NCBI RefSeq assembly: GCF_003337555.1
Contig: NZ_QPJK01000010.1
Span: 1 to 64,000 of the forward strand
DNA: 64,000 nt
Source of the DNA: Pseudorhodoferax soli
GTDB lineage: Bacteria; Pseudomonadota; Gammaproteobacteria; Burkholderiales; Burkholderiaceae_C
Direction: 5' to 3'
This document shows, piece by piece, positions 28,663 through 42,376 of this stretch (its first letter is position 1; each line of letters starts with the position of its first letter). Position numbers and translations under genes: made by a program. The notes under the pieces were generated by a model. That model was not told where the DNA came from. It ran no database searches and saw only the letters and a list, made by a program, of their open reading frames with translations.

Positions 28663-30129
28663 CTAAGCGGCCGGGAAGGCCGCGATCACCTGCGCCACGG
28701 CGGCGGTCAGCCGCTTGGCGTACGGCACATGCAGGAATTCGTTGGGCCCGTGGGCGTTGCTCTTGGGACCCAGCACACCGCAGACCATCATCTGCGCCTG
28801 CGGAAACCCCTGAGACAGCATGTTCATGAGCGGGATCGTGCCGCCCTGGCCGATGTAGCCGCAGGGCGCGCCGAAGTGCGCCTGCGAGGCCGCATGGAGC
28901 GCGTTCTCGAACCAGGGCGCCGTGGCCGGGGCGTTCCAACCCGTGGCGCCACCCTCGCCCTGGAACGTCACGCGGGCCTGGTAGGGCGCGTTGTCTTCCA
29001 GCAGGGCCTTGAGTTCCTGCACGGCCTGCCCGGCCTCGACCAGCGGCGGCAGCCGCAGCGAGAGCTTGAACGCGGTGTAGGGCCGCAGCACGTTGCCGGC
29101 GTTGCGCAGCTCGGGAAAGCCTTCGGCGCCCGTCACCGACAGCGTGGGCAGCCAAGTGCGGTTGAGCAGCGCCTGCACCGGGTCGGTGGTGGTGGGCAGC
29201 GCGGTCTGCACGGCACCGCCGCAGTCGTAGTGTGCCCAGGGGAAGCGCTTGTAGATCTCGTCGCCCAGGATGGCGGCCGTGGCCTTCGCCTGGGCCAGGC
29301 GCTCGGCCGGCACCTCGCAGTGGAAGCTGGCGGGCAGCAGGCGGCCGGTGGCGCTGTCTTCCAGGCGGTCCAGCACCTGGCGCATGATGCGAAAGCTCGA
29401 GGGCACCAGGCCCGAGGCGTCGCCCGAGTGCACGCCCTCGGTCAGGATCTCGACCTTCAGCACGCCGCTGGCCATGCCCCGCAGGCTGGTCGTGAGCCAC
29501 AGCTGGTCGTAGTTGCCGGCGCCCGAATCCAGGCACACCACGAGCGCCACATCGCCCAGGCGCGGGCGCAGCGCGTCCACATAGGGCAGGAGGTCGTATG
29601 AGCCGCTTTCCTCGCAGGTCTCGATGACGCCGACGATGCGCGGGTGCGGCGCGTTCTGCGCCTTGAGCGCCTGCACGGCCGCGATGCTGGCGTAGACCGC
29701 GTAGCCGTCGTCTGCGCCACCGCGGCCGTAGAGCTTGCCGTCCTCGTACTTGGGCGTCCAGGGGCCGAGGCCCGAGCGCCAGCCGTTGAACTCGGGCTGC
29801 TTGTCCAGGTGGCCGTACATGAGCACCGTCTGCGTCGCGGTCGTTCCGCTGGCCGGGATCTCGAAGAACAGCACCGGCGTGCGGCCTGCCAGGCGCACGA
29901 TCTCCAGTTTCAGCCCGGGCACCTTCTGCGCCTCGACCCAGGCTGCGGCATTGCGCATCACCGTCTCCAGGTGACCGTGCGCCGCCCAGTCGGGGTCGAA
30001 CGACGGCGACTTGGCCGGGATCGCGATGTAGTCGGTCAGCTGGCGGACGATGTCATCGTCCCAGGCGCGCGTGGCATGGGTCAGCGCGGCGTTGGCATCG
30101 AGCACGTTGGCGGGGACACGGGCGTTCAT
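28663..30129 (-). CDS. M20-family metallopeptidase (dipeptidase-like)
   Basis: 488 residues with the co-catalytic zinc-site motifs of M20: YGHLDKQPE (His and Asp), GRGGADDG (bridging Asp), ETCEESGS (catalytic Glu then metal Glu), CLDSG (metal Asp) and NAHGPNEFLHV (metal His). Length and motifs suit CNDP/dipeptidase-type members. The ATG at 30129 is preferred to one at 30168 because the family N-terminus starts there. It lies 68 bases after mdcH on the same strand, so it could be read through from the malonate operon, but it has no obvious role there. Confidence 0.88.
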   Translation of the reverse strand: MNARVPANVLDANAALTHATRAWDDDIVRQLTDYIAIPAKSPSFDPDWAAHGHLETVMRNAAAWVEAQKVPGLKLEIVRLAGRTPVLFFEIPASGTTATQTVLMYGHLDKQPEFNGWRSGLGPWTPKYEDGKLYGRGGADDGYAVYASIAAVQALKAQNAPHPRIVGVIETCEESGSYDLLPYVDALRPRLGDVALVVCLDSGAGNYDQLWLTTSLRGMASGVLKVEILTEGVHSGDASGLVPSSFRIMRQVLDRLEDSATGRLLPASFHCEVPAERLAQAKATAAILGDEIYKRFPWAHYDCGGAVQTALPTTTDPVQALLNRTWLPTLSVTGAEGFPELRNAGNVLRPYTAFKLSLRLPPLVEAGQAVQELKALLEDNAPYQARVTFQGEGGATGWNAPATAPWFENALHAASQAHFGAPCGYIGQGGTIPLMNMLSQGFPQAQMMVCGVLGPKSNAHGPNEFLHVPYAKRLTAAVAQVIAAFPAA

Positions 30130-30197
30130 GGCGGGCACTCCAAGGGCGCAAAGAGGGCATTGCACCACAAGGCAGGCGCGGCGTCAGGGGTGGCTTG

Positions 30198-31097
30198 CTA
30201 CGTCCGCGCCAGCCATGCGGCGATGGCCTGGGCACTGCGGAATTCGTCGGCCGCGCGTGCCGGCACACCGGGGTGGCGCTGGTTCCACAGCCGTGCCAGC
30301 GCCTGGCCGGCACCGATCTCCAGCACGCGGTCGACCCCACGCGCGTGCAGGTTGTCCATGCATTCGTCCCAGCGCACGGTGGTGGCGATCTGCGCAGCCA
30401 GCGCCTGGCCGGCCTGCGCGGCGCTGGCGACGCGGTCGGCCGCATTGCTGAACAGCGGCGTGTGCGGGCGCGCCAGCGGCAGGCCGGCCAGGCGCTCGGC
30501 AAAGGCCGCGGCCGCAGGCTGCATGGCGGGCGTGTGCGAAGCCACGGCGACGCGCAAGGGCGTGGCGTGCGCGCCAGCGGCCCGGGCCGCCGCCTCGGCC
30601 CGCGCCAGCGCGGCGGGCGGGCCGCCCAGCACCACGCTGTCGATGCCGTTGCGGATGGCGATAGCCAGGCTCCCGTCGGCCAGCAGCCGCTCCAGCACGG
30701 CGGGCGTGCACTGGCTCAGGCCGAGCAGGCCGCCCGGCGCCTGGGCGGCGCAGCGGTCCATGGCGACGGCACGCGCCTGGGCCAGGTCCAGCGCCGTGGC
30801 GGCATCGAACACGCCCGCCGCGCTGAAGGCCGCCAGCTCGCCCACGCTGTAGCCCGCGATGGCCGCAGGCGGCGGCACCAGCGGCGCGAGCTGCGCCCAG
30901 GCCGCCAGCGCCAGCCCGGTCAGGAGGCACTGGGCGTGGGCGTTGCGCGCGCCCCAATCTGCATCGGCGAGGCTGGCGCGCCAATCGGCCACACCCAGCC
31001 GCGCACCGACGCTGCGCGTGAGGGCGTCTTCGGCCAGCCAGGGCAGCATGCCGGGATGCTGGCCGCCCTGGCCCGAGAACACGAGGGCCCACGCCAT
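30198..31097 (-). CDS. mdcH: Malonate decarboxylase epsilon subunit (malonyl transferase) MdcH
   Basis: 299 residues of the FabD-like malonyl transferase fold: N-terminal FSGQGGQHPGM, nucleophile motif GYSVGE (Ser84) and a later histidine in ASHTPAM. In malonate decarboxylase it moves malonyl from malonyl-CoA onto the special ACP during activation. It is last in the mdc operon; its ATG directly follows the mdcB stop (TGAATG). Confidence 0.9.
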   Translation of the reverse strand: MAWALVFSGQGGQHPGMLPWLAEDALTRSVGARLGVADWRASLADADWGARNAHAQCLLTGLALAAWAQLAPLVPPPAAIAGYSVGELAAFSAAGVFDAATALDLAQARAVAMDRCAAQAPGGLLGLSQCTPAVLERLLADGSLAIAIRNGIDSVVLGGPPAALARAEAAARAAGAHATPLRVAVASHTPAMQPAAAAFAERLAGLPLARPHTPLFSNAADRVASAAQAGQALAAQIATTVRWDECMDNLHARGVDRVLEIGAGQALARLWNQRHPGVPARAADEFRSAQAIAAWLART

Positions 31098-31955
31098 TCA
31101 GAGCGCGTCCAGGCGTTGCAGCCAGCAGGCGGCGGCCAGCGTGTCGGCTGCGCCACCCGGCGACAGGCGGCGGGCCACGAAGTCGCGGCCGATGGCGGCG
31201 GCCTGCGCCAGTGCATCGGGCTGCGCCGCACCGCCTGCAGCGAGGAAGTTGCGCGCCGCGGCCTGGGCGTGGCGCAAGCCGGCCAGGCCGCCGCGCAGGG
31301 CAAGGTTGCTGTCGTCGAGCACGGCGATCACATGGAACAGCGCATCGAGCCGGGCCAGCGGCGGCGCCAGGCCGCGCGCCTGCGCCGCCGCGAGCGCCGG
31401 CAGCGCCGTGGAGAAGAGCACCGGAAAGCCCGCTGCCGCCTCGTGCGCGGCGCCGCGCAGGCCCAGGCGCCGCGCCACCCGGCCGCCGGGCAGCATGGGC
31501 GCACGCTGGGCGCGCAAGGCCAGGGCCGCGCCCCAGTGCGCAAGCAGCGCCGCGCGCACGGCGGCGGGCCGCAGCGGCGCGCCTGACTGCGCCACCGCGC
31601 CGGCCGCGGCGCACAGCAGGCCGAGCTGGAACACCGCGCCGCGGTGGGTGTTGATGCCGCCCGTGGCGGCCAGCATGCGCGCCTCGGCCGCGATGCCGCA
31701 CCGCTCCAGCGCCGCAAAGCCGGCCCCGGCCTGGCCCAGCGCGGCGATGCGGGGAAAGTAGCCGCGCAGCGCGAACAGGCTGCGCACGAAGGTGCCGGCG
31801 TCCATGTCGGCGTGGCTGCCGTTGTCCACCAGGGTCACGAGACCGGGTTTGGGACTCAGGGCGAGCTCGTCGTACAGCGCGAGCGTGGCCGCGCGGCCGA
31901 TGGCCTGCGGCGTGGCACCGGCCTGCGCGGCGCGCCGGTGTGCGGGCACCGTCAT
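31098..31955 (-). CDS. mdcB: Triphosphoribosyl-dephospho-CoA synthase MdcB
   Basis: 285 residues of the CitG/MdcB family. Diagnostic pieces are ELALSPKPGLVTLVDNGSHADMD, GGINTHRGAVFQLGLLC and the late DSNLALRGG motif. It builds the precursor of the decarboxylase prosthetic group from ATP and dephospho-CoA, for MdcG to transfer onto MdcC. Alanine content is very high, as in the neighbouring accessory genes. It overlaps mdcG by ATGA. Confidence 0.9.
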   Translation of the reverse strand: MTVPAHRRAAQAGATPQAIGRAATLALYDELALSPKPGLVTLVDNGSHADMDAGTFVRSLFALRGYFPRIAALGQAGAGFAALERCGIAAEARMLAATGGINTHRGAVFQLGLLCAAAGAVAQSGAPLRPAAVRAALLAHWGAALALRAQRAPMLPGGRVARRLGLRGAAHEAAAGFPVLFSTALPALAAAQARGLAPPLARLDALFHVIAVLDDSNLALRGGLAGLRHAQAAARNFLAAGGAAQPDALAQAAAIGRDFVARRLSPGGAADTLAAACWLQRLDAL

Positions 31956-32611
31956 GCGGCCTCCTCGGCCTGCCAGAACGGCGCATCGGCCAGGGCCACG
32001 CCGTCCAGCCGCTTGACCAGCACCTGGGCCGTGCGGCCGGCGCGCCAGGCCAGCCATTCGCGCCAGGCCACGGCGCGGTCGCCCGCGAACAGCAGTTCGC
32101 CGTCCAGCCGCAGCCCGTCCGACCAGGACTGCAGCAGCACGGCCACGGCATCGGCCTGCGCGGGGCCGTCGACGGCAATGCACAGGTCGATGTCGGAGCC
32201 CGGGCGCAGGTGGTCCAGCCCGGTCAGCAGCTGCCAGCCGTGGCTGCCGTAGACGCGCGCCGCCACACCGCAGGCAGACAGGCCGCCGCACAGCGCGCGC
32301 CAGGGCCGGCGCTGGGCGGCGCTCAGCAGCGGAGCCAATGCGCTGGCGGGCGGAAAGGCTGTGCGCTGTGCGATGTCGGGCTGCGGCACGGCCAGCGCGA
32401 TGCGCCGGCGCGCCCAACGGCCCGGCGCCGGCAGGCCCAGGCAAACCGCGCCCTCGGCCTGCGGGCGCTGCCGCGTGACGACCAGCGGCAAGCCGTGCTG
32501 CGCCCAATGCGCGAGGCAGGCCCGCGCCTGGGCATCCCATGCACCGGCCAGCACGCGCAGCCAACCGGCGTCGGTCAGGCGCACGAGCTGGTGGCGGTGC
32601 AGGGCCGTCAT
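31952..32611 (-). CDS. mdcG: Phosphoribosyl-dephospho-CoA transferase MdcG (holo-ACP synthase)
   Basis: 219 residues. The nucleotidyltransferase-like motif YGSHGWQLLTGLDHLRPGSD, continuing into DIDL, is characteristic of MdcG; the N-terminus MTALHRHQLVRLTDAGW matches the family. It attaches the triphosphoribosyl-dephospho-CoA group to the serine of MdcC. The start at 32611 overlaps the mdcE stop (ATGA); the longer open frame upstream is antisense-like. Confidence 0.88.
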   Translation of the reverse strand: MTALHRHQLVRLTDAGWLRVLAGAWDAQARACLAHWAQHGLPLVVTRQRPQAEGAVCLGLPAPGRWARRRIALAVPQPDIAQRTAFPPASALAPLLSAAQRRPWRALCGGLSACGVAARVYGSHGWQLLTGLDHLRPGSDIDLCIAVDGPAQADAVAVLLQSWSDGLRLDGELLFAGDRAVAWREWLAWRAGRTAQVLVKRLDGVALADAPFWQAEEAA

Positions 32612-33315
32612 GCCGCTTCCAGCACCCTTTGCGCCACGGCGGCCGCGAGCTTGCGGCCGCCGCGCGCGGCGCCGTCCTGCGCACGCACGTCCTCCACCGG
32701 CGTCTGCACGAGCGCCTCGCGCAACGCGGCCTGCAGGTCGCCCTGCCACAGCGCACGCACGCCGCCCATGGCCACGTAGTTGTCCACGCCGGGCGCGAAC
32801 ACGGGGTTGGCCTTGGACAGCTCGGTCAGCATGGACTCGGGCAGCTTGGTCACGCGCGCCATGGCCGGGATGCGCATGACGCGGATCTCGGCATCGGGCA
32901 GCGCATAGCAGGCATCGGCGATCAACCCCGAGGTGATGAAGCCGCCCGACAGCGCCTGGTCGTACACCAGGCCCAGCACGCGGTGGCCGCTGCGCCGCGC
33001 CAGGTCGATGGCCATGCCCAGGTGGGCCATCGCGCGGTTGATGCCCAGCAGCTCGTCGCGCCGGCGCAGCTGCTGGCCCTGGGTGTCGATCAGCAGCACG
33101 ATGGGCCGGCCCGGGTGCTGGGCGATGGTATCCAGCACCACGCGGGCCTGGGCCAGCGCGAGCGCCACGCCGATGGGCGCGTGGCCGGTGGTGCCGACCA
33201 CCGCGATCGCCGCGCCGTCGAGCTGCGCCGTGCCGTGCAGGAAGTCGCCCTCGGCTTGGATGCCGTGGTCGGGGCCGAACAGTTGGGTGGCAAGAAGGTT
33301 CCAGTCGAGCGGCAT
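32608..33315 (-). CDS. mdcE: Malonate decarboxylase gamma subunit MdcE
   Basis: 235 residues of the carboxyltransferase (crotonase-like) fold, with LLIDTQGQQLRRRDELLGINRAMAHL in pieces typical of MdcE (PIVLLIDTQGQ, RRRDELLGINRAM) and the glycine-rich SGGFITSGLIAD. With MdcD it decarboxylates malonyl-ACP to acetyl-ACP and CO2. Normally the next gene to mdcD or fused with it; here a hydrolase and a Bug gene separate the two. Its ATG lies 23 bases after the Bug stop. Confidence 0.9.
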   Translation of the reverse strand: MPLDWNLLATQLFGPDHGIQAEGDFLHGTAQLDGAAIAVVGTTGHAPIGVALALAQARVVLDTIAQHPGRPIVLLIDTQGQQLRRRDELLGINRAMAHLGMAIDLARRSGHRVLGLVYDQALSGGFITSGLIADACYALPDAEIRVMRIPAMARVTKLPESMLTELSKANPVFAPGVDNYVAMGGVRALWQGDLQAALREALVQTPVEDVRAQDGAARGGRKLAAAVAQRVLEAA

Positions 33316-33338
33316 GGCGGGGTTCCCGGAAAAAGGTG

Positions 33339-34331
33339 TCAATCGAGCTTGATGTTGGCGGCCTTGACGACGCCGGCCCAGCGCGTGATCTCGGCCTGCA
33401 CGTAGTCGCCGAACTGCGCCGGCGTCAGCGCGCCGAACTGCGCGCCGTTGCTGGCCCACACGGCGCGGATCTCTTCGGCGGCGCCGGCCTTGCGGACCTC
33501 CTCGACCACGCGCGCCTGTGCCTCGGCCGGCGTGCCCTTGGGCGCCCACAGCCCATACCAGGTCGTGACCTTGTAGTCGGGCAGGCCCAGCTCGGCCGCG
33601 CAGGGCACATCGGGCAGCGAGGGGTTGCGCTGGGCACCCGCCACCATCAAGGCCTTGATGCGGCCGCCCTTGATGTGCGCGGCCGAGGAGCCCAGTCCGT
33701 CGAACATCATGTCGACGTTGCCCGAGATCAGGTCCTGCAGCGCCGGCCCCGCGCCGCGGTAGGGGATGTGGGTGATGAAGGTGCCCGTCTGCAGCTTGAA
33801 CAGCTCGCCCGCCAGGTGGTGCGAGGTGCCGCCACCGGCCGAGGCGTAGTTGAGCTTGCCGGGGCTTTTCTTGAGTTCCGCCAGGAAGGTCTTGAAGTCT
33901 GTCGCCGTCACGCGCTTGGGGTTGACCACCAGCACCTGCGGCACCTCGGCCAGCAGCGCCAGCGGCACGAAGTCGCGCTGCAGGTCGTAGTCCAGCTTGG
34001 GATAGACCGAGGGCGCGATGGCGTGGTGGATGGCACCCATGAACAACGTGTAGCCGTCGGGCTGGGCGCGCGCAGCGATGGTCGCACCCAGCGTGCCGCC
34101 GGCGCCGCCGCGGTTGTCCACGATGAGCTGCTTGCCGGTCTGCTTGGCGAACTGGGCCGACAGCGGGCGCGCGAACGCATCCGTGCCGCCGCCGGCCGGG
34201 AACGGCACGACCAGGTTGACGGGCTTGGTGGGCCAGCCGGACTGGGCGCGCACGCCCAGTGCCGTCAGGGCCATGCCGGCGGCGCCGGCGCGCAGCAAGG
34301 TGCGGCGGGGGAACGAGGTGGCGTGGTGCAT
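33339..34331 (-). CDS. Bug/TctC solute-binding protein inside the malonate operon
   Basis: 330 residues with a twin-arginine signal (PRRTLLRAGAAGMALT, residues 8-23, cleavage after VRAQ) and Bug marks VNLVVPFPAGGGTDAF, VDNRGGAGGTLG, DGYT and THIPYRGAGP. GGAGA lies about nine bases before the ATG. It sits between the lipoprotein hydrolase and mdcE on the same strand with short gaps (22 and 23 bases), so it is almost surely cotranscribed with mdc genes. A plausible ligand is malonate or a malonate derivative; this is inference from place only. Confidence 0.9.
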   Translation of the reverse strand: MHHATSFPRRTLLRAGAAGMALTALGVRAQSGWPTKPVNLVVPFPAGGGTDAFARPLSAQFAKQTGKQLIVDNRGGAGGTLGATIAARAQPDGYTLFMGAIHHAIAPSVYPKLDYDLQRDFVPLALLAEVPQVLVVNPKRVTATDFKTFLAELKKSPGKLNYASAGGGTSHHLAGELFKLQTGTFITHIPYRGAGPALQDLISGNVDMMFDGLGSSAAHIKGGRIKALMVAGAQRNPSLPDVPCAAELGLPDYKVTTWYGLWAPKGTPAEAQARVVEEVRKAGAAEEIRAVWASNGAQFGALTPAQFGDYVQAEITRWAGVVKAANIKLD

Positions 34332-34353
34332 GGTGGTGTGTCTCCGTTGTGGT

Positions 34354-36708
34354 TCAGGGCAGCGCGGCAAAGCCGGGCTGGGCGATCTGCGACTGCGCAC
34401 GGTTGCGGTAGGCCGTGGCATCGTCGGCGCCGTACAGGCCGTTCAGCATCAGGCCGCGCGCCACCAGGTCGTCCACCGACTGGCCGACCGCGGCCACGTA
34501 GCCCGCCTTGCTGCCGTACAGGGCCTGCACACTGCGGCGCGGGTCGCCGCCCTGGCGCAGCGCATCGGTCACGGCGAAGGCCAGCTGCGAGCCGTTCAGC
34601 CCGTACTGGTCGCCCGCGACGAAGCCACTCTTGCGCAGGCTGTAGCCCGTGAACGTGGCCAATGGCACGGACGAATCGGGCATCTTCACACCCGCCACGT
34701 CGTTGCCCTGCGCATCCACCGTGGGCAGCTGCACCACGTAGAACTTGCTGGAGACGGCCGAGGGGATCACGCTCTCGTCGTTCAGGCTCAGCGTGTTGTA
34801 CACGCCGTTGAAGGCCAGGCCCGGCGTGCCGGCCACGCCCGTGAAGGCCACGCCCGACAGGTCGGGCCCGCCCAGGCTGGCGGCCGCGCCGGTCGGCACC
34901 GCCAGCGTGCCTGCCCGGGCCGACGGCCAGGCGCTGGCCAGCGGCTGCGCCGTGCCCTTCACCCAGCCCTCCAGGTTCAGGTACAGCGCGCGCACCAGTG
35001 CCGTGCTGGCGTTGTTGACGGTGGCCGCGTAGGTGGGCGAGGTGGCGGCCACGCTGCGCGTGACCGTCATGTCGGGCTGGGTCCGCGCATTGGCGGCCAG
35101 CTGCGAGGGGCTGTGCTGGGTGCCGGTGGCATAGAACAGGCGCACGTTGTCGGGCACGGCCACGTCGTTGCCCTGGCCGTCGGTGGCCACCAGGGATGCG
35201 CGCGCGCCACCGAACTCGATCGGGCTGTCGTACTGGATCACCTTGGGGCAGGTGCCGTCTTCGCTGCACTTCTTGAGCAGGCCATCGGTGCGGCCGCTGA
35301 CGGGGTCGGTCAGGGTGGCGTAGCCGAACGGGAACTGGTCGCCGGGCGTGTAGTGGGTCTCGTGCTGGCGCGCGTAGTCGCCGGGCTTGGACCAGCGGTA
35401 GTTGGTGTAGGTCTTGCGCGAGCCACCCACCAGCGGCAGCATGCCGTCGAACACCCGGCGCTGTTGCGCGTCGGCGTTGAACCCCTGCCACAGGTAGTCG
35501 CGCACATAGCGGCCCGACTGCGAGATGCCACCGAACAAGGTGGTCTGCACGCGGCCCGCCAGCGGGTTGCGGTTGCCCGCCGCGTCGGTTGTGCCGTGCC
35601 GCAGGAAGCTGACGAGGTCGCGCGTGGCCAGGAAGCCCAGTCCCATGACCTTGGGCTCCACCGCGGTGTAGTTGAACTGGTAGATCGATCCGTTGTCCAG
35701 CCCGGCGTCGAGCGCGGCGGCGTAGGCCGCGTCCGCGCGCACGGCGGCGCGGTCGATGGTGACGAAGCCGTAGCCGGTCGCGCCGGTGGAGCCCGCCGGT
35801 GCCGTGCCGCTGCCGGCGGTGTAGGCCCATGCGGACGAGGCCACCGTGATGGGTGCCGAGGTGGGCGTCCTGCGCACCGTCAGCGTGGCCGATGCCAGCG
35901 CGCCAGGCGCCATCTTGTAGTAGGTGCCGAGCAGGTTGGACGTGGCGTTGTCGGCGATGAACTCGTCCTGCACGCCGCCGGTGATGGGCGCGTTGCCGTT
36001 GGCCACGTCCACGGCGATGGGCAGCGTCATGCCCGGCGCGTACCAGCGCTGCGTGCCCGTGATCGCGGCCGTGGCGCCGGTCAGCGTCTGCGGCTGGTCG
36101 CCCTGCCAGCCGGCCCAGACGATGCTGGCGCCCTGGTTCAGCAGGAAGCCGTTGCCAGCGCCCACGCCGGCCACGTCGCCGGAGCCGGTGGCAGACACCT
36201 GCGGCTGCACGTTGCCGAACAGGTCGTTGCTGGAGCCCTCGTTGAGCGCAGGCACCAGCAGCGACCGGGTGCGGTTGGAGACTTCGTAGAACAGCGTGCC
36301 GTTGCCGCGCGCCGCATCCGTCGGTGCCAGCAGCACCACGTCGAACCGGTAGCGCACGAAGCCGTCGGCGTCGGGCACGGTGTTCTTGAGGTCGACGATG
36401 GTGGCGGCGCAATCGTCCTTGGGCGACACCGTGGCCGTGGCCGCGGCCAGCGTGTAGGTGTAGGTGCCCACGCTGCCAAAGCTGGCGCCTTCGAACGCCA
36501 GGCCCGTGCCCTTGACGTCGAGGCGCTCGATGGCCGAGCGCTTGATCGGGCAGGGGCGCGTGTACTCGGGTGGCACCAGCGCGCTGCGCGCGGCCGGCAG
36601 CTGCGGCGCACCGCCGTCGCCGCCGCCGCAGGAAGCCAGCAGCACCGCCGCAATGGCCGCACTGCCACGCGTGGCGTGGCTGGCCAGGGCACCAGGGATG
36701 TGTGTCAT
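34354..36708 (-). CDS. Lipoprotein alpha/beta hydrolase (Abhydrolase_10 type) inside the malonate operon
   Basis: 784 residues. A lipobox LLASC puts the lipidated cysteine at residue 27, so the mature protein is membrane-anchored outside the cytoplasm. The family signature GGISQSGR (about 393-400), with YVRDYLW following, and the earlier NQGASIVWAGWQGD (about 191-204) mark the alpha/beta-hydrolase domain-containing family, whose substrates are mostly unknown esters. AGGAGA seven bases upstream supports the start. It lies between mdcD and the Bug gene in one direction with gaps of 68 and 22 bases. Hydrolysis of a malonate ester or other conjugate would make sense of the location but is unproven. 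Confidence 0.85.
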   Translation of the reverse strand: MTHIPGALASHATRGSAAIAAVLLASCGGGDGGAPQLPAARSALVPPEYTRPCPIKRSAIERLDVKGTGLAFEGASFGSVGTYTYTLAAATATVSPKDDCAATIVDLKNTVPDADGFVRYRFDVVLLAPTDAARGNGTLFYEVSNRTRSLLVPALNEGSSNDLFGNVQPQVSATGSGDVAGVGAGNGFLLNQGASIVWAGWQGDQPQTLTGATAAITGTQRWYAPGMTLPIAVDVANGNAPITGGVQDEFIADNATSNLLGTYYKMAPGALASATLTVRRTPTSAPITVASSAWAYTAGSGTAPAGSTGATGYGFVTIDRAAVRADAAYAAALDAGLDNGSIYQFNYTAVEPKVMGLGFLATRDLVSFLRHGTTDAAGNRNPLAGRVQTTLFGGISQSGRYVRDYLWQGFNADAQQRRVFDGMLPLVGGSRKTYTNYRWSKPGDYARQHETHYTPGDQFPFGYATLTDPVSGRTDGLLKKCSEDGTCPKVIQYDSPIEFGGARASLVATDGQGNDVAVPDNVRLFYATGTQHSPSQLAANARTQPDMTVTRSVAATSPTYAATVNNASTALVRALYLNLEGWVKGTAQPLASAWPSARAGTLAVPTGAAASLGGPDLSGVAFTGVAGTPGLAFNGVYNTLSLNDESVIPSAVSSKFYVVQLPTVDAQGNDVAGVKMPDSSVPLATFTGYSLRKSGFVAGDQYGLNGSQLAFAVTDALRQGGDPRRSVQALYGSKAGYVAAVGQSVDDLVARGLMLNGLYGADDATAYRNRAQSQIAQPGFAALP

Positions 36709-36776
36709 GTCGTTGTCTCCTTCGTTGTTGAACCGGATTCGTCGTCTTTGCGACTTGTCGTGCGTCGGCGGCGCCT

Positions 36777-37673
36777 TCAGGCGCCGCGTGCGGGAACCAG
36801 TGCCTGCAGGGCCGCAACGTCGAGCGCGGGCACCTGCGCCGCATCGGCAACGCCCAGCCGCTGCCACAGGCGCACGGCATCGTCGTGCACGCCGTCGTTC
36901 CAGCCAGCCTCGGGCACCGCGGCCAGGCGGGCTGCCAGCAGTGCATGCTCGGCCTCCAGCGCCTGCAGGCTCACAGGCCGGGACTGGCGCAGCGCCGCGA
37001 TGGCGGCCGCGCGGAAGGCCTGCACGTCGTCCTCCACCAGCGCATCGCAGTCGCCGGTCAGCCAGCGGTGCTTGCCGCCGCTGGTGCGCCAGACCAGCGC
37101 GCGGTCGCGCGCGTCGTACTCGTCCACGCCGTGCGAGGCCTCGATGACCTCCGGGCCGGACATGGCCAGCCGGCCCACGTCGCTCATGACGATGTGGTCG
37201 GCGCAGCGCGCCACGATGCCCATGCCGCCGAAGCAGCCGTTGGCGCCGCCGATCAAGACCACCACCGGGATGCCGGCCGCGCGCACGTCGAGCACGGCGC
37301 GCATGACTTCGGACACCGCGATCAGGCCGGCGTTGGCCTCGTGCAGCCGCACACCACCCGATTCGGCCAGCAACAGCACCGCGGCCGGTCGGTCGCGCAG
37401 CGCGCGCTGGAGCAGGCCCACGAGCTTGGCACCGTGCACCTCGCCGACACCGCCACCCATGAACGCACCTTCCTGCGCGGCGACGAACACGGCCTGCCCG
37501 TCCAGCAGCGCGCGGCCGATGGCCACGCCGTCGTCGAAGGCCGAGGGCACGCCCAGCTGCGCCAGGTGCGGGCTGGTCAGCCGCTCGGCCGGCGGCAGCC
37601 ATTCGTGGAAGCTGCCGGCGTCCAGCAGCAGCGCCAGGCGCTCACGCGCCGAGCATTCGGCGTAGCTGATCAT
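36777..37673 (-). CDS. mdcD: Malonate decarboxylase beta subunit MdcD
   Basis: 298 residues of the carboxyltransferase fold. Typical blocks are YAECSARERLALLLDAGSF, QEGAFMGGGVGEVHGAKL, LLLAESGGVRLHEANAGL and MSGPEVIEASHGVDEYD. It forms the decarboxylase core with MdcE. It overlaps mdcC by ATGA. The next gene downstream is not mdcE but the lipoprotein hydrolase. Confidence 0.93.
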   Translation of the reverse strand: MISYAECSARERLALLLDAGSFHEWLPPAERLTSPHLAQLGVPSAFDDGVAIGRALLDGQAVFVAAQEGAFMGGGVGEVHGAKLVGLLQRALRDRPAAVLLLAESGGVRLHEANAGLIAVSEVMRAVLDVRAAGIPVVVLIGGANGCFGGMGIVARCADHIVMSDVGRLAMSGPEVIEASHGVDEYDARDRALVWRTSGGKHRWLTGDCDALVEDDVQAFRAAAIAALRQSRPVSLQALEAEHALLAARLAAVPEAGWNDGVHDDAVRLWQRLGVADAAQVPALDVAALQALVPARGA

Positions 37674-38005
37674 GGCCGCACCCCCTTGGGCAGTTCGGCC
37701 ACGGCCTGGTCCAGCCGCAGGCTGACCACGGCGGGCGTGGCGCCCATGTCGTTGACGGACACGCGCAGGCCGGCCAGGCCATGGCGGGCGTGGAAGTCGT
37801 CCATCACGGCCTGCCAGATCGGTGCGAAGCCGCGCGCCGAGGTTTCCACGCGCACGCTGCAGTCGTCGTTGGGGGTGGCCTCCAGCATCACTTCGAGGTT
37901 GCCGGAGCCGACCACGCCGACCAGCACGGGCGCGAACCTGCCAGCAGCACGGCCGCCAGCGTAGGAAAAGTCCAGGGTTTCGAGCCCTGCGGGGATGTCG
38001 CTCAT
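37670..38005 (-). CDS. mdcC: Malonate decarboxylase acyl carrier protein MdcC (delta subunit)
   Basis: 111 residues. The prosthetic group site is the serine in VVGSGNLEV (Ser34), where MdcG attaches phosphoribosyl-dephospho-CoA rather than phosphopantetheine. The remaining chain (VETSARGFAPIWQAVMDDF, NDMGATPAVVSLRLDQA) matches the MdcC/CitD-like carrier fold. It starts 13 bases after the mdcA stop. Confidence 0.93.
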   Translation of the reverse strand: MSDIPAGLETLDFSYAGGRAAGRFAPVLVGVVGSGNLEVMLEATPNDDCSVRVETSARGFAPIWQAVMDDFHARHGLAGLRVSVNDMGATPAVVSLRLDQAVAELPKGVRP

Positions 38006-38018
38006 GGGATGCCTTTCC

Positions 38019-39701
38019 TTACCAATTGCGGAATCGCTTGGGCGGTTGGTACAGCCCGCCCGACGCGCGCACCAGGTCGCGCATGCTGCGTGCGGCCAGC
38101 AGGTTGCGCGTGGCATCGCGCGGGTCGATGCCCAGGTCCACCGGCCGCTGAATGATCTTGCGGTCGCGCAGGTTCTCCACCATGCGCTTGTCGCGTGCCA
38201 GGCCCACGGCCGTGTAGCCCGCCACGCCGCGGATCGCCTGCTCGCGCTCTTCATCGCTCCTGCACAGCAGCAGGTTGGCGATGCCTTCTTCGGTCAGCAC
38301 GTGGGTCACGTCGTCGCCGTAGACCATGATCGGCGGCAGCGCCATGCCGGCCTGCTCCTGCAGCGTCCAGGCGTCGAGCCGCTCGACGAAGGCCGGCTGC
38401 ATGTGCTCGCGGAAGGTCTCCACCATCTGCACCACGAGCTTTTGCCCGCGCGGCGTGCCGGCCGCGCCGCGCCGGCCCGCGCGCGCCTCGGCCCCGGCCT
38501 TCAGCCAGGCCGGGCTGGCATGGCGCCGGCCGCGTGCGTCAGCGCCCATGTTGGGCGCGCCGCCGAAGCCGGCGATGCGGCCCAGCGTGGCGGTGGAGCT
38601 GTTGCCGTCCAGGTCCATCTGCAGCGTGGAGCCGATGAACAGGTCGCAGGCGTAATGGCCGGCCGCCTGGCAGAACGCGCGGTTGCTGCGCAGGCTGCCG
38701 TCGGGCCCGGTGAAGAACACGTCGGAGCGCGCGCGGATGTAGTCCTCCATGCCCAGCTCGGAGCCGAAGGAATGCACCGATTCGACCCAGCCCGCCTCGA
38801 TGGCCGGGATCAACGCCGGGTGCGGGTTCAGCGCCCAGTGCCTGGCGATCTTGCCCTTCAGGCCCAGCTGCTCGCCGTAGGTGGGCAGCAGCAGCTCGAT
38901 GGCGGCGGTGTCGAAGCCGATGCCGTGGTTCAGCCGCTGCACGCCATAGGCACCGTAGATGCCCTTGATGGCCATCATGGCCATCAACACCTGGATCTCG
39001 CTGATCTGCGCCGGGTCGCGCGTGAACAGCGGCTCGATGAAGTTGGGCGTGGGCGCCTTCACCACGAAGCTGACCCAGTCGGCCGGGATGTCGATGCGCG
39101 GCAGCTTCGTCGTCGCGCCGTCCACCAGCTCGTTGACCTGCGCGATGACGATGCCGCCCGAGAACGCCGTGGCCTCGACGATGGCCGGCGTGTCCTCGGT
39201 GTTCGGGCCGGTGTAGAGGTTGCCCTCGGCATCGGCCGCATGCGCCGCCACCAGCGCCACCTGCGGCGTGAGGTCGATGAAGTAGCGCGCGAACAGTTCC
39301 AGGTAGGTGTGGATGGCGCCGATCTCGATGCCGCCCGCCGAGACCAGCTTGGCCAGCCGCGCGCCCTGCGGACCGGAGAAGCTGAAGTCCAGCTTCGCGG
39401 CGATGCCGTTCTCGAAAAGGTCCAGGTGCTCGGGCAGCGCCAGCACCGACTGCACCATGTGCAGGCCGTGCACGCGCGCCGGGTCCACCTGCACCAGCGC
39501 CTTGGCCAGGAAGTCGGCCTGCTTCTGGTTGTTGCCTTCCAGGCAGACGCGGTCGAAGGGTTCGAGCACGGCCTCCAGCAGCGCGCCGATGGCGCCGGCC
39601 GCGACGTGCTTGCCGGCCAACTGCGGGCCGAGCGCCTGCGCGGCGCGCGCCAGCCGCGCCTGGCGCCGGGTGGTCTTGGTGTTCCAGTTCATGCGGTCCA
39701 T
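38019..39701 (-). CDS. mdcA: Malonate decarboxylase alpha subunit MdcA (acetyl-ACP:malonate ACP transferase)
   Basis: 560 residues, the usual length for MdcA. Features include CLEGNNQKQADFLAKAL near the N-terminus, VNELVDGATTKLPRIDIP, and the YGDDVTHVLTEEGIANLL segment near the C-terminus. It exchanges acetyl for malonyl on the carrier protein. A second ATG at 39692 is a possible alternative start. It begins seven bases after the madM stop, in the same operon. Confidence 0.95.
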   Translation of the reverse strand: MDRMNWNTKTTRRQARLARAAQALGPQLAGKHVAAGAIGALLEAVLEPFDRVCLEGNNQKQADFLAKALVQVDPARVHGLHMVQSVLALPEHLDLFENGIAAKLDFSFSGPQGARLAKLVSAGGIEIGAIHTYLELFARYFIDLTPQVALVAAHAADAEGNLYTGPNTEDTPAIVEATAFSGGIVIAQVNELVDGATTKLPRIDIPADWVSFVVKAPTPNFIEPLFTRDPAQISEIQVLMAMMAIKGIYGAYGVQRLNHGIGFDTAAIELLLPTYGEQLGLKGKIARHWALNPHPALIPAIEAGWVESVHSFGSELGMEDYIRARSDVFFTGPDGSLRSNRAFCQAAGHYACDLFIGSTLQMDLDGNSSTATLGRIAGFGGAPNMGADARGRRHASPAWLKAGAEARAGRRGAAGTPRGQKLVVQMVETFREHMQPAFVERLDAWTLQEQAGMALPPIMVYGDDVTHVLTEEGIANLLLCRSDEEREQAIRGVAGYTAVGLARDKRMVENLRDRKIIQRPVDLGIDPRDATRNLLAARSMRDLVRASGGLYQPPKRFRNW

Positions 39702-39708
39702 GGTCGGT

Positions 39709-40482
39709 TCATCCCAGCAGGGCCTTGGTGGCGAAGAACAGGACCGAGGGGCCCATCAGGCAACCCAGTCCGGTGTAGAAGGTCGAGGTCATCGCGCCAT
39801 AGGGCACCAGCCTGGGGTCGATCGCGGCCAGCGCGCCGCAGACGCCGCTGGTCGTCCCCATCATTCCGCCGAACACCATGGCCGTGCGCGGGTTGTCCAG
39901 GCCGATGCTGCGGGCGAACAAGGGTGCGCCCACCATCACCAGCACCGACTTGACCAGGCCCGCGGCGATGCTCAGCGCGATCAGTTCGGAGCTGGCGCCG
40001 ATGGCGGCGCCGGTCACAGGCCCCACGATGTAGGTGACCGCACCAGCGCCGATGGTGGCCACACTGACCGCATCGGTGTAGCCGAAGGCCAGCGCAACGC
40101 CGGCGCCAACGACAAAGGACAACACCACCCCGAGCAGCAGCGAGACGACGCCGCTGACGCCGCACTTGCGCATGTCGGACAGCGTGGCGCCGTAGGCGGT
40201 GGACACGATGGCGAAGTCGCGCAGCATGGCCCCGCCCAGCAGGCCGACACCGCCGAGCAGCTTGACATCGACGACACCGTTCTTGCCACCGGTGGAAACG
40301 CCCGCCACATAAGCGGCGAGGAGGCCCAGCATGATGGCCAGCGCCGAGCCGTGCAGCCGTCCGCGCGTCAGCTTCGCCGACAACTGGTAGGACAGCCACA
40401 TGGTGGCACCGACCAGCGCGAACGCCGTGAGCAGCCCGTTCTTGACGAGCAGATTGAGCAGCAGGTCGAGGACCGGGCTCAT
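39709..40482 (-). CDS. madM: Malonate transporter subunit MadM
   Basis: 257 residues, strongly hydrophobic with about seven to eight membrane segments; the GLLGGAMLRDFAIVSTAYGA, GPVTGAAIGASSELIALS and FGGMMGTTSGVCGALAAID stretches are typical of MadM. With MadL it imports malonate with sodium or protons. It overlaps madL by ATGA; the start at 40482 gives the family length. Confidence 0.93.
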   Translation of the reverse strand: MSPVLDLLLNLLVKNGLLTAFALVGATMWLSYQLSAKLTRGRLHGSALAIMLGLLAAYVAGVSTGGKNGVVDVKLLGGVGLLGGAMLRDFAIVSTAYGATLSDMRKCGVSGVVSLLLGVVLSFVVGAGVALAFGYTDAVSVATIGAGAVTYIVGPVTGAAIGASSELIALSIAAGLVKSVLVMVGAPLFARSIGLDNPRTAMVFGGMMGTTSGVCGALAAIDPRLVPYGAMTSTFYTGLGCLMGPSVLFFATKALLG

Positions 40483-40889
40483 GCTGCACCGTCGCCAGTC
40501 GGGTGGTCCAGCGCCGCGCGTGCCAGCGTTCGCCGCGCCAGCCCGATCCGGTCGATCACCGGGATCAGGGCGAAGCACACGACGGTGGCCAAGACCCCCG
40601 CGAGAATGGCCATCGGCCCTCCCTTGACGGCGCCGAGCACGTTCTGCTGGGCCGCCATGGCCACCACCACCGGGATGTACATCGCGGTCCAGAACACGAT
40701 GCCCTGCTCGGACTGCGGCACGAAGCGCCCGCTGCGCTTGAGCTTCTCCGTCAGCAACAGCAACAGCAGCATCGCAAAGCCGACGCCGCCCACATTGGCC
40801 TTCACGCCGATGGCCAGCCCCAGCACATCGCCGACCAGCGCACCGAAGAGTGTGCAGATGGCGAGGAGCCCTACCCCGTAAATGATCAT
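40479..40889 (-). CDS. madL: Malonate transporter subunit MadL
   Basis: 136 residues with four hydrophobic segments, beginning MIIYGVGLLAICTLFGALVG and containing VKANVGGVGFAMLLLLLLTE, the MadL pattern. AGGAGA seven bases before the ATG at 40889 supports the start. It is the first gene of the malonate operon, 218 bases downstream of the LysR gene on the same strand. Confidence 0.92.
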   Translation of the reverse strand: MIIYGVGLLAICTLFGALVGDVLGLAIGVKANVGGVGFAMLLLLLLTEKLKRSGRFVPQSEQGIVFWTAMYIPVVVAMAAQQNVLGAVKGGPMAILAGVLATVVCFALIPVIDRIGLARRTLARAALDHPTGDGAA

Positions 40890-41107: not shown

Positions 41108-42022
41108 TCAGAACCGACCGCGTGAGGCGCGGCACACCGCCAACAGCGCCAGCAGGTTGGGGTCGCGCTCGCGCGAGCGCAGGAAACTCAGCGCGATGGT
41201 CTGGCGCACGCGGTAGCGTGCAAGCAATGGCACCAGCCGCACGTTGGGCGGCAACACGGTGCGCATGCGGCCGGGCAGCAGCGTGCAGCCGACGCTGCCG
41301 TCCACCAGGTTCATGAGCGAGAAGATGTCCCCGGTGTGCATGGCGATCTGCGGCGCAAAGCCGGCGATGCGAAACGCCTCGACAAAGCTGTCGTAGGTGG
41401 CGAAGCCTTCGGTCAGGCTGACGAATCGCTCGTCGACGCACGCGCTCAGGTCCACCTCGGGCATCGCTGCGTAGGCCGACTGCGCGGGCGCTGCGAAGAA
41501 GGCCTCGTCCTCGAACATCGGTTCGTACTCGATGTCGGTGGCGGCCACCGGCACGGCCATCAGTGCGGCGTCGATCGCGCCGTCGCGCAGCTTGGCCAGC
41601 AGGTCGGCGTTGGAACCCAGCAGCAGCTCGGTCTGCACGGTGGGGCGGCGCTGCTTCATGCCCAGCACCAGCGCCGGCACGGCGCGGCTGGTCAGCGAGT
41701 ACATCGAGCCGATCCGGACACGGTCGGCCGCGTAGCCGGCGATCTCGCGCGTGGCGCGCACGCCGTCGCCGAGCAGGCGGCGCATCTCGCGTGCCGTCTC
41801 GGCCAGGCGCTGCGCCGCCGGCGTGGGCACCAGGTTGCGCCCTTCCTGGCGGAACAGCACGCAGCGCATCGCCTCCTCCAGCGCGTGCAGCGCGCGGTGC
41901 ACGCTGACCACGCTGGTCTGCAGGCGCTCGGCTGCGCGCGCGAGGTTGCCGGTCTCCATGAAGGCCAGCAGCACCTGCAGCTGGCGCAGCGTGATGTCGT
42001 CGTCGGCGGCGGGGGCGGACAT
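41108..42022 (-). CDS. mdcR: LysR-family regulator, probable malonate-utilisation activator
   Basis: 304 residues: N-terminal winged helix (about 9-68, LRQLQVLLAFMETGNLARAA, TSVVSVHRALHALEE) and a substrate-binding domain from about 95. Its position directly upstream of madL-madM-mdc, on the same strand, and the LysR-like site between them point to the MdcR role of activating malonate genes. The symbol rests on context rather than on a diagnostic residue. Most LysR activators are divergent from their targets; this one is not. Confidence 0.8.
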   Translation of the reverse strand: MSAPAADDDITLRQLQVLLAFMETGNLARAAERLQTSVVSVHRALHALEEAMRCVLFRQEGRNLVPTPAAQRLAETAREMRRLLGDGVRATREIAGYAADRVRIGSMYSLTSRAVPALVLGMKQRRPTVQTELLLGSNADLLAKLRDGAIDAALMAVPVAATDIEYEPMFEDEAFFAAPAQSAYAAMPEVDLSACVDERFVSLTEGFATYDSFVEAFRIAGFAPQIAMHTGDIFSLMNLVDGSVGCTLLPGRMRTVLPPNVRLVPLLARYRVRQTIALSFLRSRERDPNLLALLAVCRASRGRF

Positions 42023-42055: not shown

Positions 42056-42376
42056 CTATTCCACCACCACCGCCGTGCCGCTGGCCGAGACCATCAGCAT
42101 GCCGTTGTCGCGGCCCAGCACCTCGTAGTCCAGGTCCACGCCGACGACGGCGTTGGCACCTGCCTCCTGTGCCCGCTCCTGCAGCTCGCGCATCGCGATG
42201 TCGCGCGCGCGCTGCAGTTCGCGCTCGTAGGTGGCCGAGCGGCCGCCGACCAGGTCGCGGATGCCGGCGAACATGTCCTTGAACACATTGGCGCCGAGGA
42301 TGGCCTCGCCCGCGACCACGCCGCAGTAGCGGGTGATGCGCTTGCCCTCGATGGAGGGGGTGGTGGTGATCAGCAT
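42056..42376 (-). CDS. YbjQ-like (UPF0145) protein
   Basis: 106 residues with the UPF0145/YbjQ pattern: [43 protein letters not shown] in pieces, and the C-terminal [16 protein letters not shown]. The family forms small homo-oligomers of unknown role. It starts 13 bases after the amidohydrolase stop and so may be in the sugar operon, though it has no evident metabolic link. Confidence 0.88.

Follow-up and report, generated by a model that had tools for sequence, protein, structure and literature searches.

Why should mdcD and mdcE, the genes for two core subunits of malonate decarboxylase (MDC), lie apart in an operon that has all the core genes, and could the two proteins encoded between them take part in malonate use? 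The question is raised by a 64,000-nucleotide stretch of Pseudorhodoferax soli DNA (contig NZ_QPJK01000010.1, positions 1 to 64,000), here called the window. Its minus strand carries an extended malonate operon in the order lysR, madL, madM, mdcA, mdcC, mdcD, PF20091 hydrolase, Bug, mdcE, mdcG, mdcB, mdcH and M20 peptidase. The beta subunit gene mdcD (36777..37673) and the gamma subunit gene mdcE (32608..33315, with an ATG start at 33315), both identified by family match, are separated by the gene of a 784-residue lipoprotein hydrolase of family PF20091 (Abhydrolase_10; 34354..36708) and that of a 330-residue solute-binding protein of the Bug/TctC family (33339..34331). The gaps are 68 bases between mdcD and the hydrolase gene, 22 between the hydrolase and Bug genes, and 23 between the Bug gene and mdcE. 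An earlier, sequence-only reading of this DNA had given the same gene order, single strand and gaps; these proved correct when re-read from the sequence, and profiles recovered the families of all members of its madLM-mdcACDEGBH series. Thus mdcA, C, D, E, G, B and H all lie on one strand, and mdcD and mdcE are not adjacent: two genes stand between them here and one in the five other genomes of the genus.

The observations described below favor, with a probability of about one half, an extended malonate-use operon in which Bug would be a malonate receptor and the hydrolase a malonate-releasing esterase. Judged from sequence, Bug is likely to be a malonate-binding protein, and the chances appear evenly balanced that the hydrolase is a serine esterase that acts outside the inner membrane and releases malonate from an ester.

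The interval between mdcD and mdcE

Bug, and not the hydrolase-Bug pair, splits mdcD and mdcE in the genus. A Bug gene lies between them in six of six genomes, the window's included, with identities of 90-100% (90-96% in the five others), and because the place is the same in all six, the insertion is not noise. The hydrolase gene stands between mdcD and Bug in the window genome only, among these six. The pair had been put forward as a unit that might be conserved at this position; as a fixed unit it is ruled out, since Bug stands there alone in the five other genomes.

Beyond the genus the two decarboxylase genes keep together. In the family sample of 299 genomes MdcE was detected in 41, and 40 mdc loci of other genera were fetched from 37 genomes of this sample. 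No Bug gene lies between mdcD and mdcE in any of the 40. The distance between the tblastn matches of the two genes is 6-421 bases in 39 of them; in the remaining locus (L070) tblastn missed mdcE, and a profile match begins about 100 bases behind mdcD. The premise of the sequence-only reading that mdcD and mdcE are normally neighbors is thereby upheld.

A different PF20091-type protein is encoded ahead of mdcA in the five other genomes of the genus (41-45% identity; 36-38% by tblastn). A lysR gene lies ahead of this hydrolase in four of them, and the stretch fetched for the fifth (L037) showed none. A PF20091-type gene is thus present in all six mdc operons of the genus, in versions 36-45% alike and at differing places, which suggests that the function was kept while the gene was swapped and moved.

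The neighboring genes here and below are named by Pfam, NCBIfam, tblastn or record annotation where cited, and otherwise by reading the N-terminus; the gene caller, which relied on the GC content of third codon positions (GC3), gave wrong-frame calls in genes of tripartite ATP-independent periplasmic (TRAP) transporters and missed some genes. MadLM was not detected in the mdc operons of the five other genomes. Three of the five have a MatC carrier gene between the hydrolase gene and mdcA (92-100% identical to the copy in L038, which was the query), and the fetched stretches of the other two (L035, L036) gave no MadLM, MatC or TRAP match. Rhizobia are known to have malonate carriers of the TRAP and MatC types. 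The carrier ahead of mdcA appears to be swapped freely, being MadLM, MatC, TRAP or none (window 39709-40889; L035-L039, L075, L084, L098, L110).

The GC3 of the hydrolase and Bug genes is 0.94-0.95, like that of their neighbors, so that neither gene looks recently foreign. Both reading frames are open, and both genes have ribosome-binding-like leaders resembling those of the neighboring genes. The leader ahead of the window hydrolase (CAACAACGA-N-GGAGACAA) is similar to the one ahead of Bug in L039, and this likeness suggests that the hydrolase gene was inserted immediately ahead of the Bug gene.

The Bug protein and malonate operons

The Bug protein matches the TctC/Bug profile PF03401 with an E-value of 3e-62 and 211 bits over profile positions 2-273 of 274, that is, along the whole mature protein. 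Its signal is of the twin-arginine translocation type (RRTLLRAG, by eye), and the closest solved chain is 2dvz (BugE; E 3.9e-69). The 8.16-Mb window genome contains at least 150 Bug genes, and 150 candidates per genome were scored across the genus. Among these, only two groups exceed 50% identity to the window Bug. One is the mdc Bug itself, present in six of six genomes; the other is a second Bug, 75-76% identical, beside the gene for malonyl-CoA decarboxylase (MCD) in five of six. The next best of the 150 scored is at 48%.

MCD is encoded together with MatB and MatC in the rhizobial malonate operon matABC. As the second Bug adjoins MCD, MCD loci were surveyed. MCD occurs in 166 of the 299 family genomes, and 80 loci were fetched: 68 from one genome each of other genera, eight from further genomes and four from the genus. 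A Bug at least 60% identical follows MCD in 59 of the 80 (55 of 76 outside the genus), and the order MCD-Bug-MatB is found in 58 (54 of 76). By this rule 21 loci lack such a Bug; some of them are truncated at contig ends, and in L177 the Bug and matB genes are on the opposite strand. Eight of the 40 mdc loci of other genera have a Bug 62-73% identical within 3 kb ahead of mdcA; a further three have a Bug of 39-42% identity. In many mat operons there is space for an extra gene between Bug and matB; in L134 (4198-4965) it encodes an enoyl-CoA hydratase-family protein with no obvious malonate role.

In a tree of 89 Bugs, a clade of 37 with 100/100 support consists of 13 mdc and 24 mat copies and no others, and the window Bug falls inside it. 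Two of the 13 (L098, L102), 2.6 kb from mdcA, were labeled mdc by hand; 38 of 63 rows labeled mat were left out of the tree, and one row outside the clade (window_7966) bears a wrong mat label that came from a weak AMP-binding match. The chance presence of just any Bug, to be considered in a genome with at least 150 of them, is rejected by this malonate-only clade. The window Bug nests among the mat Bugs; a mat operon was therefore its probable source, and its recruitment was probably independent of that of most mdc Bugs in other genera. Among 75 malonate-operon Bugs, 71-73 keep residues such as H102, H171, W262, K265 and W292, which no more than a quarter of 48 other Bugs share.

The association extends to the order, where a search at E 1e-105 gave 44 Bug places in 41 of 379 genomes. 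Thirty of these loci were read with 1.5-kb flanks: 19 have MCD and/or MatB adjoining, one is the window itself and ten have neither. Twenty of the loci come from other families, and MCD and/or MatB adjoin Bug in 11 of these, in five families. Together with the MCD-Bug-MatB order in 58 of 80 loci, this supports the part in malonate use that the sequence-only reading had given to Bug; its capture of malonate is a prediction.

The permease is a separate matter. Bugs work with TctAB permeases; the window genome has eight TctA genes, none of them in the window, and there is no TctAB in the operon. The proposal that Bug captures malonate and MadLM imports it is doubtful, because MadLM is undetected in the five other operons of the genus and because TctAB is the usual partner of Bugs.

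The PF20091 hydrolase and the remaining operon genes

The hydrolase matches PF20091 with an E-value of 1.8e-35 and 123 bits against a cut-off of 23. It has a lipobox, LLAS-C, with glycine at +2 (by eye), and by the +2 sorting rule for lipoproteins it is predicted to be an outer-membrane lipoprotein. In an AlphaFold2 model (mean pLDDT 82.9, pTM 0.87) S396 of the GISQSG motif comes straight after a strand, and E498 and H532 stand behind later strands; all three residues are invariant in 34 aligned hydrolase sequences. From their position and order, S396, E498 and H532 are predicted to be the catalytic triad of a serine esterase. Weak Foldseek matches were headed by MHETase (1.3e-03) and included glucuronoyl esterases, acetyl xylan esterase and LipA; MHETase and the glucuronoyl esterases were not accepted as homologs, there being no match at E 0.001 or below. 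Sequence and fold searches of solved structures found no characterized PF20091 homolog.

PF20091 occurs at 87 places in 59 of the 299 family genomes. According to the listed coordinates, at least 11 of these places, in five genera, have mdc or MCD genes within 10 kb; fewer than one would be expected by chance, by a rough estimate that takes about 20 kb per locus and genomes of several Mb and leaves kinship uncorrected. One further place (G120) is at a contig end. The order MCD-hydrolase-Bug-MatB is found in three genomes (G004, G017, G135), and in a fourth (G024) MCD and the hydrolase gene are followed by the contig end. Elsewhere the PF20091 gene lies a few kb ahead of mdcA with TRAP genes between them (two copies in G143, and G295). 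In a metagenome-assembled genome from Betaproteobacteria a PF20091 gene with 64% identity adjoins mdcA, and behind a near-twin of this hydrolase comes a TRAP receptor that shares 74% identity with one linked to mdc. The link is weaker in L223, L225 and L290, where the hydrolase gene adjoins that of a GntR regulator with 60-75% identity to its counterparts at mdc loci; L225 also encodes a TRAP receptor, 80% identical to one linked to mdc, with no MDC genes nearby.

Plasmids provide a further setting. The hydrolase matched 21 plasmid records, of which 15 were read. Six of the 15, five from Sinorhizobium fredii and one from Pararhizobium, have the hydrolase gene directly behind MCD-MatB-MatC on the same strand, in the order GntR-MCD-MatB-MatC-hydrolase; in two the hydrolase gene lies in an AtuA cluster (one annotated, one by reading), and the remaining seven gave no MCD, MatC or mdc match. 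The matC-linked PF20091 gene of S. fredii CCBAU 25509, GR64 and SMH12 (L309, L312, L313) matches in two pieces and is possibly broken; in CCBAU 45436 it forms a single frame.

Trees of 53 and 49 hydrolases place the copies linked to malonate genes in four separate supported subclades, which suggests that PF20091 hydrolases were recruited repeatedly into malonate operons. The second tree left out 13 of 62 rows, among them L226 and L227, which had long branches in the first. Within the hydC group the MCD-linked copies branch first. Near four hydC relatives away from malonate genes (L212, L214, L216, L217) a secreted-looking protein of 354-360 residues is encoded; in L214 and L216 it is an alpha/beta hydrolase by Pfam.

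The other genes of the operon, all on the minus strand, are madL (40479..40889) and madM (39709..40482) for the malonate transporter subunit and the malonate:Na+ symporter subunit, mdcA (38019..39701) for the alpha subunit, mdcC (37670..38005) for the acyl carrier protein, mdcG (31952..32611), mdcB (31098..31955) and mdcH (30198..31097), each by family match and with the starts of mdcG and mdcB taken from the sequence. MdcB, MdcH and MdcE score under the curated NCBIfam cut-offs, and MdcE is above the Pfam cut-off. A lysR-type regulator gene (41108..42022) lies ahead of the operon, and an adjoining gene (42056-42370) encodes a YbjQ-family protein that is 98-99% identical in two other genomes of the genus (G001, G002). 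An M20-family metallopeptidase gene (28663..30168, by family match) follows 30 bases directly behind mdcH. A copy 94-95% identical is present in three of the five other genomes (G001-G003), and none was found within about 2 kb behind mdcH in the other two (G004, G005). The M20 enzyme could act on N-malonyl conjugates.

A possible route of malonate acquisition

From gene content, conservation, phylogeny and the triad-fitting residues we infer a route that would run from ester to acetate, with a putative substrate and location for the hydrolase, a ligand for Bug and a path of transport. The lipoprotein, acting outside the inner membrane as a serine esterase, would free malonate from an ester. 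Bug would bind the malonate in the periplasm and probably hand it over to a TctAB permease shared with other Bugs; sharing is proposed because the genome has eight TctA genes and at least 150 Bugs. MadLM, MatC or TRAP carriers might import malonate alongside the Bug route, and MDC would decarboxylate it to acetate. The hydrolase would thus be an optional front end, added to malonate operons several times by different lineages.

A number of observations weigh against this reading. MDC itself is not known to need such an esterase. Three mdc-linked Bugs (L091, L093, L103) fall outside the malonate Bug clade, and most malonate Bugs have no hydrolase gene adjoining, as only two of the 59 MCD-Bug loci have one (L134, L143). 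The PF20091 places near malonate genes, at least 11 of 87, are a low share, and stretches of 6.6-16 kb holding 13 other hydC relatives gave no mdc, MCD, MatB or MatC match. Among the relatives found, the one closest to the window hydrolase (83%) is encoded on a Comamonadaceae OTU4NAUVB1 plasmid of Arabidopsis leaf origin, of which 26 kb gave no match to MCD, MatC or mdc; the neighbors there are a branched-chain-type ATP-binding cassette transporter, an unrelated Bug (33%) and an AMP-binding enzyme with 38% identity to MatB. A second PF20091 group occurs with AtuA, Bug and sometimes a tannase-family lipoprotein (L119 8469-15216 in the window's own genome, L120, L122, L123, L125, L127; AtuA by Pfam in L119, otherwise by reading). 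Finally, the hydrolase has no solved relative by sequence search at E 1 or below, and none by Foldseek at E 0.001 or below. At the order level the other 18 hydrolase loci (33-44%) gave no MCD or mdc match in 1.5-kb flanks, and in L292 the hydrolase gene lies behind a weak (34%) AMP-binding match.

The tie of the hydrolase to malonate operons is therefore recurrent and not universal. The second group with AtuA indicates that the family is not malonate-specific; PF20091 seems to serve several carboxylate pathways, and by its gene contexts the hydrolase is an accessory, optional part of malonate operons. The part of the hydrolase in malonate use claimed by the sequence-only reading is supported by its recurrence in mdc, MCD-hydrolase-Bug-MatB and GntR-MCD-MatB-MatC-hydrolase operons and is weakened by the 83% relative away from malonate genes. 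Conservation with malonate genes beyond close relatives holds for each family separately, and the pair between mdcD and mdcE was found only in the window genome.

Other explanations can be weighed against the same facts. Bug might be a true malonate receptor and the hydrolase a broad-range periplasmic esterase in a convenient carboxylate operon, feeding several acids of which malonate is not the main one. Such an esterase is possible, if doubtful. It would explain the 83% relative, the scattered hydC relatives, two of which lie 10-80 bases directly behind an unrelated Bug (34%) outside malonate operons (L221 813-3835, L222 5391-8461), and the company of AtuA, Bug and tannase genes, or of AtuA with a citrate symporter and a TonB receptor in Sphingomonas. 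It fits less well with a PF20091-type gene kept in six of six mdc operons of the genus despite gene replacement, or with independent linkage to mdc, MCD-MatB and matABC operons in Beta- and Alphaproteobacteria. That both genes landed by chance and have no malonate role is very improbable and disfavored: the hydrolase is at exactly this place in one genome only, but the frames are open, GC3 and leaders resemble those of the neighbors, Bug retains 90-96% identity across the five other genomes, and both families recur beside malonate genes.

It is also conceivable, and unlikely, that Bug is an extracytoplasmic sensor of malonate and not a transport receptor, with the hydrolase acting as proposed above. 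The lack of a nearby TctAB and the ratio of TctA to Bug genes would suit a sensor, and BctC of Bordetella is reported to signal, according to passages of PMC4996985. However, no sensor kinase is seen among the named operon genes, and in L035 and L036, whose fetched stretches gave no carrier match, uptake may run through Bug. As to the ester, the natural substrates might be malonylated sugars or glycosides such as legume malonyl isoflavone glucosides, the sugar being taken up by separate systems. This rather unlikely suggestion, in which malonylated glycosides are a weak candidate, is made because PF20091 genes lie beside those of glycoside hydrolase family GH4 in S. fredii and GH15 in Terrarubrum and occur with ribose-type binding-protein genes and ROK-like regulators (L216, L228; ROK by eye), and because Glycine is the source of three of the six strains with matC-linked plasmid copies. 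Malonylated isoflavones are major soybean isoflavonoids, as stated in extracts of PMC5433297, and the best weak fold matches are esterases, several of which act on plant-wall sugars. On the other hand, sugar genes are common; such neighbors are few, are on the opposite strand in S. fredii and were not seen in the window operon.

The malonate-scavenging reading would offer one clade of Bugs, a very large family in which most members have no known ligand, a ligand of its own, and would offer a testable substrate for the PF20091 esterases, among which no characterized member was found. If the hydrolase does free malonate from conjugates, it would reveal one malonate source for soil and root bacteria, and legume malonyl isoflavone glucosides are a candidate for it. 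A wider proposal, advanced tentatively, is that the PF20091 proteins encoded in beta- and alphaproteobacterial malonate operons are esterases dedicated to malonyl esters, possibly malonyl glycosides, and that the Bug clade is the malonate receptor, forming a route for scavenging plant conjugates that was assembled independently several times. The sequence-only reading had called such an extension of malonate metabolism undescribed to its knowledge. In agreement with this, no paper linking Bug or a PF20091 enzyme to malonate itself was found in the extracts of the open-licence PubMed Central (PMC) literature, PMC4996985 being the nearest, and the word malonate occurs 0 times in the available text of the 2018 review of tripartite tricarboxylate transporters (PMC5812351). 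The malonate operon of the window would thus be an enlarged one whose receptor probably has a new ligand and whose esterase is a candidate for a new substrate.

The biotin-independent MDC operon of Pseudomonas is mdcABCDEGHLM, according to the passages of PMC5534430 that describe it. The window shares all its core genes and MadLM, and differs in the separation of mdcD from mdcE and in the added Bug and PF20091 hydrolase. The rhizobial matABC operon serves the same substrate by other chemistry, through malonyl-CoA, and in S. fredii and Pararhizobium it has a PF20091 gene behind matC; the Burkholderiales, in contrast, have Bug between MCD and MatB, where it replaces or joins MatC. BugD, BugE, Bug27 and AdpC share the PF03401 fold with the window Bug and have ligands other than malonate, namely aspartate, glutamate, nicotinate and adipate, as given in parts of PMC8556258 and PMC5812351. 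Orphan Bug genes adjoin arylmalonate decarboxylase genes, as noted in passages of PMC4996985. In those loci, which can be likened to the window by gene context, a Bug gene also stands beside that of a malonate-derivative decarboxylase in Betaproteobacteria without TctAB; the enzyme, however, is unrelated, cofactor-free and acts on aryl malonates, and the passages describe no malonate receptor or esterase.

The nearest working analog of the proposed route is the use of terephthalate by Ideonella. There, according to the relevant parts of PMC8556258, the extracellular hydrolases PETase and MHETase free the dicarboxylate, the Bug protein TphC binds it, and the genes of the permease TpiAB lie elsewhere. 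Hydrolysis of an ester followed by capture by a Bug, and a Bug gene placed in the catabolic operon, are the points of likeness to the proposed route. The window has a hydrolase of another family and a different predicted ligand, and MHETase is the top, weak, fold match of that hydrolase.

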